A stretch of DNA of 58,039 nt, from positions 1 to 58,039 of the forward strand of contig JAGWSR010000105.1 of NCBI GenBank assembly GCA_028869385.1. Reading direction: 5' to 3'. Shown one piece after another: positions 25,913-58,039 of the stretch (position 1 is its first letter; every line of letters begins with the position of its first letter). The notes beneath the pieces are model-generated. The model was not told the origin of the DNA, did no database searches, and saw only the letters and a list, made by a program, of their open reading frames with translations. This DNA is from a bacterium. GTDB lineage: Bacteria; Vulcanimicrobiota; Vulcanimicrobiia; Vulcanimicrobiales; Vulcanimicrobiaceae. Both the position numbers and the translations under genes were made by a program.

Positions 25913-25997
25913 ACGTTTAACGGCTCAACACTTGCTGAGAATACATCGTGACGCGAGGATTCAGGCAACCGATGGGTAAAATCCTTATATCAGCCAT

Positions 25998-26131
25998 CTG
26001 CGCCGAATCTCGCATGTTGCGAGAGCGGGGGACCCAACGTCAGCGCCATCGCGCGCTCGGGGTGAATCCGGTCACCGACCGGACGGAAACGGGACACGTT
26101 CCGAACCCGACAGCTAACCTCGCAGGCGACC
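25998..26131 (+). ncRNA. ydaO/yuaA riboswitch (cyclic di-AMP)
   Basis: The leader has the family's conserved blocks in order: GCGGGGGACCCAA (26025-26037), TCGGGGTGAATCCGG (26057-26071), and GAACCCGACAGCTAACC (26103-26119) followed by TCGCAGGCGACC. A TCTCGCA/TGCGAGA hairpin lies near the 5' end (about 26009-26023). This matches the actinobacterial-type ydaO/yuaA consensus closely. The aptamer binds c-di-AMP and normally lowers expression. Downstream, GCCGGC-TTTC-GGCCGGC (26141-26158) could form the expression platform just before the GAGGAG ribosome site. No U tract is seen, so translational control seems likelier. Boundaries are approximate. Confidence 0.88.
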
Positions 26132-26178
26132 GTATCCCGTGCCGGCTTTCGGCCGGCCGACCGATGAGGAGTGAACCC

Positions 26179-57236: not shown

Positions 57237-57312
57237 GGGGGCATAGCTCAGCTGGTAGAGCATCACGCTGGCAGCGTGAGGGTCAGGAGTTCGAGTCTCC
57301 TTGCCTCCACCA
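57237..57312 (+). tRNA. tRNA-Ala (GGC anticodon)
   Basis: A 76-nt cloverleaf with encoded CCA. Acceptor GGGGGCA pairs with TGCCTCC with the G3-U70 wobble. Anticodon stem TCACG/CGTGA with loop CTGGCAG gives anticodon GGC (57270-57272). Its 3' half from 57258 is repeated at 57464. Confidence 0.96.
57258..57312 (+). repeat. 55-bp direct repeat, copy 1 (3' half of tRNA-Ala(GGC))
   Basis: Runs from the end of the D arm through the anticodon arm, T arm and CCA; identical to 57464-57518. Confidence 0.9.
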
Positions 57313-57317
57313 TGAAC

Positions 57318-57355
57318 GACGAGGGTCTGCACGTGCGGACCCTCGTCTTTGTTTT
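57318..57355 (+). terminator. Intrinsic terminator of tRNA-Ala(GGC)
   Basis: GACGAGGGTC (57318-57327) pairs with GACCCTCGTC (57338-57347), 10-nt loop, followed by TTTGTTTT. Confidence 0.88.
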
Positions 57356-57363
57356 ACGCGCAT

Positions 57364-57460
57364 TCGGGGGCCCCGCGATAGCGGGGGGCGCGCAGGTGCG
57401 AAGCACCGAAGCGCCTGTTCAAGCATTCGGGGTCCCCGAAAACGCGCAGCGTTTTTGGGG
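57364..57460. repeat. Approximately 97-bp hairpin-rich repeat element, copy 1 (between tRNA-Ala copies)
   Basis: Contains GGGGCCCCGCGATAGCGGGG, GCGCAGGTGCGAAGCACCG and a final GGTCCCCG...CGTTTTTGGGG hairpin. The same order and near-identical sequence occur at 57834-57932 inside rnpB. Confidence 0.85.
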
Positions 57461-57463
57461 CAT

Positions 57464-57518
57464 GAGCATCACGCTGGCAGCGTGAGGGTCAGGAGTTCGA
57501 GTCTCCTTGCCTCCACCA
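57464..57518 (+). repeat. 55-bp direct repeat, copy 2 (partial tRNA-Ala(GGC))
   Basis: Exact copy of 57258-57312, lacking the 5' half. It cannot fold as a tRNA. Confidence 0.9.
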
Positions 57519-57525
57519 CTTCGAA

Positions 57526-57561
57526 ACGACGGTTCGTCCTACGACGAGCCGTCGTTTTTTT
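57526..57561 (+). terminator. Intrinsic terminator after the tRNA-Ala fragment
   Basis: ACGACGGTTCGTC (57526-57538) pairs with GACGAGCCGTCGT (57543-57555; one G-U), 4-nt loop, followed by a run of seven T. It ends just before the rnpB -10. Confidence 0.92.
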
Positions 57562-57569
57562 GTTATACT
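57562..57569 (+). promoter_or_regulatory. Candidate rnpB -10 element
   Basis: TGTTATACT includes TATACT (57564-57569) about 7 bases before the apparent 5' end of rnpB. The -35 region is occupied by the preceding terminator stem and is not consensus. Confidence 0.5.
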
Positions 57570-57575
57570 GCGCGG

Positions 57576-58039
57576 GCGAAGTACGCCGGGCGATCGCACG
57601 GCGCGTCGAACGGCGCGCTTGGGTGAGGAAAGTCCGGGCTTCACAGGGCAAGGTGCAGGATAACGTCCTGTCAGGGTGACCTGAAGGAAAGTGCCACAGA
57701 AACATACCGCCCCAAAAACTGCAAGCAGTTTTTGGGGACCCCGAGAGCTTTTGAAAGGTGCTCCGGTGCTTCGCACCTGTGCACCCCCCGCGTTCCGCGG
57801 GGCCCCCACATCCCGCGAACGAGTCGTGGGATCTCTGGGGGACCCGCGCGAGCGGGGGCGCGCAGGTGCGAAGCACCGGAGTGCCTCTTTCAACTCGTGG
57901 GGTCCCCAAAAAGCGCAAAGCGCTTTTTGGGGTAAGGGTGAAATCGTGAGGTAAGAGCTCACGGAGCTTCGCGGTGACGCGGGCTCGGGTAAACCCCACC
58001 TGAAGCAAGACCGCTCGAACTCTGGGACCTTCGAGTCCC
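57576..58039 (+). ncRNA. rnpB: RNase P RNA component (bacterial type A-like), 3' end outside window
   Basis: Signature blocks in order: GAGGAAAGTCCGGGCTTC (57626 region; P4 5' strand/CR I), CAGGGTGACCTGAAGGAAAGTGCCACAGAAACATACCGCC (CR II region), then after a long insert GGTAAGGGTGAAATCGTGAGGTAAGAGCTCACGG (CR III) and GCTCGGGTAAACCCCACCTGAAGCAAGACC (CR IV). CR V and the P1 3' strand lie beyond the window. The region between CR II and CR III, where helix P12 sits, holds a 223-nt hairpin-rich insert. It matures tRNA 5' ends. Confidence 0.95.
57710..57932. repeat. Hairpin-rich insertion in the rnpB variable (P12) region, including repeat element copy 2
   Basis: Small hairpins CCCCAAAAACT/AGTTTTTGGGG (57710-57736) and CCCCAAAAAGCGC/GCGCTTTTTGGGG (57904-57932) flank a long stem: CCGGTGCTTCGCACCTG (57763-57779) pairs with CAGGTGCGAAGCACCGG (57863-57879). 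The 3' part (57834-57932) is homologous to the 57364-57460 element. Confidence 0.85.

Follow-up and report, generated by a model that had tools for sequence, protein, structure and literature searches.

The window analysed here is a whole contig (G000:C67) of 58,039 nt from a genome of 3.08 Mb in 152 contigs, and towards its end a tRNA-Ala gene is followed by rnpB, the gene for RNase P RNA. The tRNA-Ala (GGC) at 57237–57312 on the plus strand is intact (ARAGORN; Rfam tRNA, 66.3 bits), and its 3′ end is duplicated: copy A of a 55-bp direct repeat is the 3′ part of the gene (57258–57312, plus strand), and copy B, 100% identical, lies at 57464–57518 on the same strand. Between tRNA copy A and the element described below stands a terminator-like hairpin with a T run, seen as an inverted repeat at 57315–57350 (plus strand). 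rnpB begins at 57578 and runs on the plus strand to 58039, where it is truncated by the contig end. It is a genuine class A RNase P RNA (RF00010, 153.6 bits against a gathering threshold of 100), with an enlarged P12 that cmscan reports as an insertion at 57707–57935 (plus strand). Elsewhere in the window, a c-di-AMP riboswitch (ydaO/yuaA leader) is found at 25991–26143 (73 bits).

Three copies of one element of roughly 95 nt lie in this region, one after tRNA-Ala and two, in inverted order, inside P12. Copy 1, a long form, occupies 57366–57460 (plus strand) and scores 75.6 bits (E = 9e-13) with R1, a covariance model of the element core whose E-values are only rough; its fold has a z-score of −3.9, with hairpin A at 57371–57386, hairpin B, carrying a GNA/GNA internal loop, at 57387–57415 and hairpin C at 57434–57460. 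When 57364–57460 was used as a blastn query against its own genome, copy 2, inverted in P12 at 57710–57807 (minus strand), matched with 82% identity (E = 2.5e-17; R1, 75.6 bits) and copy 3, direct in P12 at 57837–57932 (plus strand), with 80% identity (E = 3e-16; R1, 61.7 bits). The sharing of sequence between the spacer and rnpB is therefore real and far above chance. There were also matches to another rnpB allele, only partial, on contig C110 (86%) and to further loci, making 8 BLAST matches in the genome as against 10 matches to the R1 model.

A preliminary description, made from the sequence alone, had proposed that an element in the tRNA spacer at 57364–57460 recurs in an rnpB insert. This held, and the sharing is larger than was claimed, with three copies. 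The direct rnpB copy had been placed from 57834 and in fact starts at 57837, and what had been read as an insert of about 223 nt holding a match in its 3′ part is two whole copies, head to head. The inverted GGTGCGAAGCACC arm reported at 57763–57779 is hairpin B of the complete inverted copy. The proposed long continuous stem in rnpB held as a rod of two copies, which lies between two local hairpins in the predicted P12 fold (minimum free energy −174.5 kcal/mol, z = −17.3). A reading of 57464–57518 as a second tRNA-Ala gene does not hold: the stretch matches the 55-nt 3′ portion of the first tRNA base for base and is incomplete, lacking the 5′ half and the D arm, with only a weak Rfam tRNA match (29.3 bits, with a deletion). 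That this tRNA repeat belongs to the insertion, and that the element core also serves as a 5′ leader, had both been missed.

The long form of the element reads, in order, GGGGN, hairpin A, hairpin B, a TTTNAAA linker, a further GGGGN and hairpin C. Hairpin A is a CCCC-stem-GGGG; hairpin B comprises GGCGC, a 3 × 3 internal loop of GNA opposite GNA, a variable inner stem of 3–5 bp, and GCGCC or GTGCC; and hairpin C is a CCCC-variable stem-GGGG. Copies from several genera align well, and the alignment demonstrates that the element is conserved as a folded RNA of one strand, through compensatory changes and G-U pairs. Across 26 core copies, 91.8% of paired cells can pair, compared with 37–61% when the partners are slid, and both-sided changes occur in 6 of 16 pairs, amounting to 21 cells against 5.1 in shuffles. 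One hairpin B pair is G-C in 16 of these copies and G-U in the other 10, a pairing that is good only for RNA of this strand. Among 82 long forms, 78 have a hairpin C of 8 bp or more, and 62 different 5′ arms are used. The two GGGGNCCCC motifs of the element can also pair together, their middle pair being G-U (27) or A-U (11), so that the RNA may switch between its local hairpins and a closing long-range helix; we infer this switch from the pairing alone and regard it as no more than possible. No Rfam family was matched by the element in the window or by seven element loci, even at an E-value of 0.5. A general complementarity of the 5′ flank to hairpin C was considered and rejected, as a copy's own pairing clearly beat mismatched ones in only 8 of 76 cases, mostly tandem copies plus one rnpB copy.

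The copy in the tRNA-Ala spacer is probably the result of a recent movement. In the near-identical species G002, the region from the tRNA to rnpB is nearly the same as in the window, with few differences along rnpB, and the site is empty: pairwise alignment shows that it lacks 205 nt between the tRNA and the terminator (57315–57519 in the window, plus strand). This insertion consists of the terminator-like spacer, the element and the repeated 55-nt 3′ part of the tRNA. For the 51-nt spacer that accompanies the window copy we found no source in the family's genomes; with a 151-nt query, other loci match only from position 44 onward.

The same arrangement, in which the 3′ end of an upstream gene is followed by a spacer, the element and a repeat of that 3′ end, recurs elsewhere. 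Direct repeats of at least 13 bp, ranging from 13 to 55 bp, flank 8 of 79 long forms, none of them in rnpB, and most long forms have none; among 929 mismatched pairs of flanks, taken as a control, only 6 give a repeat of 15 bp or longer. Besides the 55 bp of tRNA-Ala, the repeats at tRNAs measure 27 bp at a tRNA-Arg (L104) and 19 bp (G002) and 15 bp (G000) at tRNA-Val. The others come from fliG (44 bp in G011 and 20 bp in G001), nusG (26 bp) and one further site (13 bp), where fliG and nusG were named by eye from their translated 3′ ends and not by family search. The second copy of the repeat usually starts 1–5 nt past hairpin C. At four loci (L039, L269, L322 and L355), one and the same GGGG closes hairpin C and opens a tRNA-Ala gene, which implies competition between hairpin C and the acceptor stem for these bases, at the site that RNase P cleaves.

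We next compare rnpB across the 88 family genomes in which it was found. Measured in the same way as in the window, P12 of relatives is mostly 16–73 nt long, and about 16–35 nt in congeners. Element-filled P12 helices occur in nine alleles of eight genomes from three genera: in the window's genus, G000 (the inverted pair of the window and a single copy on C110), G001 (a tandem pair) and G002 (an inverted pair); in another, G069, G076 and G077; and in a third, G097 and G100. P12 is empty in congeners of these genomes. The preliminary description would have been refuted had all relatives shared the enlarged stem and had no other copies existed; neither is the case, since almost every relative has a short P12 and further copies are scattered across the family. 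On an rnpB tree built without P12, whose deeper branches are weakly supported, G077 groups with the empty G062 and with G063 (99/99), G069 with the empty G070 (100/89) and G076 with the empty G066 (94/77). This scatter of filled genomes among empty sisters suggests about five gains in P12, probably three in the genus of G069, G076 and G077, one in that of G097 and G100 and one in the window's genus. Repeated loss is not excluded, and the pattern could in principle reflect a single old gain followed by many losses. In G063 the element sits in P3 rather than P12, and a sister species has an ordinary P3 loop.

G001 and G002 each have a single rnpB with a complete core, scoring 228–230 bits despite the insert, and so presumably rely on the enlarged RNA; without transcript data, the function of the enlarged RNase P RNA remains an inference. 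Base pairing between the insert's 5′ flank and the 3′ arm of hairpin C prolongs P12 in several species, though outside rnpB this is no general rule. An unrelated palindromic repeat, CTTCGACA..GCTCAG..TGACA, also enlarges P12 in other genera (L301 in G032, L303 in G113, L387 in G112, L388 in G118 and L393 in G111), which points to P12 as a general landing site. The metagenome-derived G000 has two differing rnpB alleles, at the ends of contigs C67 and C110 (L002), suggesting a strain mixture. As a separate observation, G004 carries, beside a normal rnpB, a second RNase P RNA-like sequence of 266 nt (C13:85248–85513, L314; 198 bits).

Among the genomes searched, the element is found only in one family of soil bacteria of Ca. 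Eremiobacterota. The R1 model finds 10, 9 and 9 copies in three genomes of the window's genus and matches 69 of the family's 99 genomes, with up to 35 matches per genome (two near-complete genomes carry 33 and 35) and none in the remaining 30. In a phylum-wide search, all 68 positive genomes belonged to this one family. A partial scan of a GTDB-based genome collection with a 27-base pattern gave records of Ca. Eremiobacterota/WPS-2 and at least two whose title says no more than 'bacterium'. Carriage by phages or plasmids was rejected, as the pattern had no match in IMG/VR and blastn gave none in phage or plasmid records. Our sample of copies was seeded from the window copy, so that proportions are indicative only and enrichment near RNA genes is overestimated.

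Many genomes also carry the A–B core without hairpin C and with an extra 5′ stem, P0. Here the core is the 3′ half of a structured 5′ leader of about 115 nt, composed of P0, hairpin A, hairpin B and GGAGCGCCTTTAAA-ATG (for example, L105:1429–1558), with a start codon at fixed spacing and no Rfam match. Of 189 copies, 52 have a start codon within −3 to +6 nt of the end of the core, in every case in sense orientation; roughly 10 nt before that codon stands a GGAG, part of the internal loop of hairpin B, which is a possible Shine–Dalgarno sequence. The long forms show no such placement, 37 being sense and 32 antisense to the downstream gene; for both forms, genes were called with a simple codon-score caller and not a standard annotator. 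Leaders precede Eremiobacterota housekeeping genes at L062, L105, L108, L113, L114, L252, L267, L270 and other loci. By NCBIfam best match, ten downstream proteins are MetK, TrxB, PurC, NuoG, DnaJ, SucD, AtpA, AlaS, HslU and FabH, several of them below whole-protein cut-offs because only 250 residues of each were searched. Leaders at atpA, purC and dnaJ recur across genera. In an alignment of 28 leaders, 97.3% of paired cells can pair, and double changes affect 12 of 23 pairs, with 74 double-changed cells against 22.7 when shuffled and at most 9 when slid. The P0 stem occurs in exchangeable versions, one with its strands swapped; those 72 nt upstream of cores at L235–L294 include GGACCGAGCGCA...TTGCGAGGTC and a strand-swapped version of the same motif, as though the two strands of an internal-loop motif could come in either order. 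On the evidence of the shared core alone, we infer that the long form either derives from the leader family, as a mobile version of it, or has an ancestor in common with it.

Three other loci touched by the element are recorded as observations. At L054:1478–1590, judged by eye, the element seems to form an in-frame C-terminal extension of RplD (L4) that ends at the RplW start codon. At L057:1320–1770 (G001) it lies in what appears by eye to be a group I intron of tRNA-Leu, an assignment that neither Rfam nor ARAGORN confirmed. At L093:1254–1650, two tandem copies stand directly 3′ of an M-box (magnesium) riboswitch (RF00380, 131 bits).

A common structure, dispersal, filled and empty sites, recurrent insertion and direct repeats are shown by these data, and they most likely represent a new family of palindromic elements, small, mobile and non-autonomous, that fold as RNA. 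The preliminary proposal that a mobile palindromic element entered a tolerant helix of an essential ribozyme is thus supported. In the mechanism we propose, insertion would be mostly intergenic and preferentially beside or inside genes for folded RNAs (tRNA ends, and the P12 and P3 loops of rnpB), would sometimes duplicate 13–55 bp of the 3′ end of the upstream gene, and could let copies accumulate as tandem or inverted arrays. rnpB would tolerate the element because the latter forms an independent domain on the P12 loop; in several species the pairing of 5′ flank and hairpin C 3′ arm would simply lengthen P12. Insertion is inferred to occur at the DNA level, by an unidentified recombinase acting in trans or by template switching at hairpins. 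The variable and long direct repeats, the hairpin targets and the tandem and inverted pairs are compatible both with a trans-acting transposase and with template switching at palindromes as the DNA is replicated; as an inference, we give the two about equal odds. Retrotransposition by a resident reverse transcriptase was rejected: PF00078 was absent from 22 of 28 carrier genomes, including G000 and G001.

One rival account, ordinary length variation of P12 with one local duplication into the tRNA spacer and no mobile element, can be practically ruled out. It is helped by P12 being variable and in some bacteria dispensable (PMC2858038), and by the two sites being only 0.4 kb apart, but copies are dispersed over many loci and genera and P12 is empty in congeners. 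Nor is the spacer copy closest to the window's P12 copies: it has only the 80–82% identity given above with them, and copies from tRNA spacers of a different genus are among those that it matches best. The same identity pattern leads us to reject the alternative offered in the preliminary description, that the element was copied out of rnpB. An assembly artefact of the metagenome is also highly improbable. C67 ends inside rnpB, C110 carries a different rnpB allele and contamination is 3%, but the same inverted P12 pair was found independently in G002 at 98–99% identity, and, as listed above, nine alleles carry P12 inserts. A derivative of REP/RAYT or IS200/IS605 elements, moved by a Y1 (HUH) transposase, would account for short intergenic palindromes with GTAG- or GGAG-like feet that sometimes pair head to head. 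However, the Y1 transposase (PF01797) was absent from 27 of 28 carrier genomes, with a broken one in G105, whereas the same search was positive in 5 of 14 controls; because nearly all carriers lack it, we do not regard this as a REP/RAYT element, and this origin has very little to recommend it. Y1 enzymes, moreover, are not known to make long target duplications.

Remnants of tRNA-targeting integrative elements, with att sites of a tyrosine recombinase, are also hard to credit. Such elements rebuild the 3′ end of their target gene and leave direct repeats, and the repeats observed are indeed gene 3′ ends (tRNA-Ala, tRNA-Arg, tRNA-Val, fliG and nusG), but the targets differ from site to site with no shared core site, the inserts are only about 100–200 nt, most copies lack repeats, and the rnpB copies lie in loops and not at the 3′ end. 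The rival with most in its favour, although we doubt it, is a host regulatory module whose copies are selected in place, bind a common protein or ligand and tie together translation, tRNA supply and RNase P, the leader form controlling translation and the long form acting to the same end, either in trans or where RNA is processed. The fixed, always sense spacing of leader start codons, the strong leader covariation, the retention of leaders at atpA, purC and dnaJ and the positions of long forms, abutting tRNA 5′ ends and within rnpB, all speak for it. Against it, long forms lie on either strand relative to their neighbours, rnpB copies come and go between sisters, inverted or tandem, and nearly a third of the family's genomes (the 30 noted above) have no match.

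Among the traits that define MITE-like small mobile repeats such as Correia, ERIC, RUP and YPAL, the element shows those of being under 200 bp, non-coding, dispersed and non-autonomous (95–100 nt, many copies per genome), and that of filled and empty sites, at the tRNA-Ala spacer (G000 versus G002), at P12 in three genera and at P3. By analogy, the closest kinds of known element are the Rickettsia palindromic elements (RPEs), YPAL and BOX, none of which was compared in sequence. RPEs occur in tmRNA and M1 RNA (Ogata et al. 2002, as reviewed in PMC2229807), so that palindromic repeats in rnpB are already known. The likeness is of kind only: both are dispersed palindromic repeats (100–150 nt in RPEs) that form RNA hairpins and sit in rnpB and other functional genes with no obvious loss of the gene. 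RPEs belong to an unrelated lineage and are noted mainly for in-frame insertion in proteins, whereas the Eremiobacterota element is G+C-rich, keeps its fold by compensatory changes, has a core in common with a translation leader and has repeatedly come to lie in one rnpB helix, in separate lineages. YPAL/RU-2 of Yersinia makes target duplications of 3–26 bp at or beside dyad symmetry and has filled and empty sites (PMC2229807). Like the present element it is not A+T-rich, lacks TA ends and has internal palindromes and dyad targets, and its variable duplications resemble the direct repeats seen here, which may be target duplications; the repeats here, however, reach 55 bp, and no leader counterpart of YPAL is given in that review. 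BOX elements of Streptococcus pneumoniae are built of modules, boxA-(boxB)n-boxC, and are enriched between convergent genes; they too are modular and conserved at the RNA level, transcribed at operon 5′ and 3′ ends, found beside riboswitches and may affect the expression of neighbours, but no constant spacing from start codons is described for them (PMC3049150).

Two further comparisons concern the helix and the palindromes. Short tandem repeats of the heptamer type (STRR) enlarge P12 of cyanobacterial rnpB, the same RNase P helix that is enlarged here by repetitive sequence; the Eremiobacterota inserts differ in being whole structured elements, direct, tandem or inverted. REP/BIME sequences with their RAYTs share intergenic palindromes and paired copies, but the present carriers lack the Y1 transposase and the element is larger. 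The definition of REP as a single palindrome of 20–40 nt with a 5′ tetranucleotide is not met by about 95 nt with three hairpins, and GNA stands on both strands of an internal loop, unlike the conserved 5′ tetranucleotide of REP.

In the literature searched, we found no paper on such repeats in Eremiobacterota. What is probably new is recurrent entry into one ribozyme helix within one family, strong conservation at the RNA level, and a core in common with a fixed-position translation leader. In the first, one folded mobile element has invaded an essential ribozyme again and again, apparently independently each time, and the filled and empty rnpB genes of sister species offer a natural experiment on how far RNase P RNA tolerates large extra domains. 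The last brings to light an undescribed class of structured leader RNA before housekeeping genes of an uncultured phylum, linked through its core to a mobile element, and so makes it possible to test whether cis-regulatory RNAs of bacteria can spread in the manner of mobile elements. A bolder reading, which we put forward only as a possibility, is that the family harbours a mobile translation-leader RNA: a ribosome-binding cassette of P0, A, B, GGAG, spacer and ATG would have spread before housekeeping genes family-wide, and the A–B core with a third hairpin would be the spreading form that invades tRNA loci and RNase P RNA. If true, a mobile element of bacteria would be spreading in the form of a 5′ UTR that is ready-made and open to selection.
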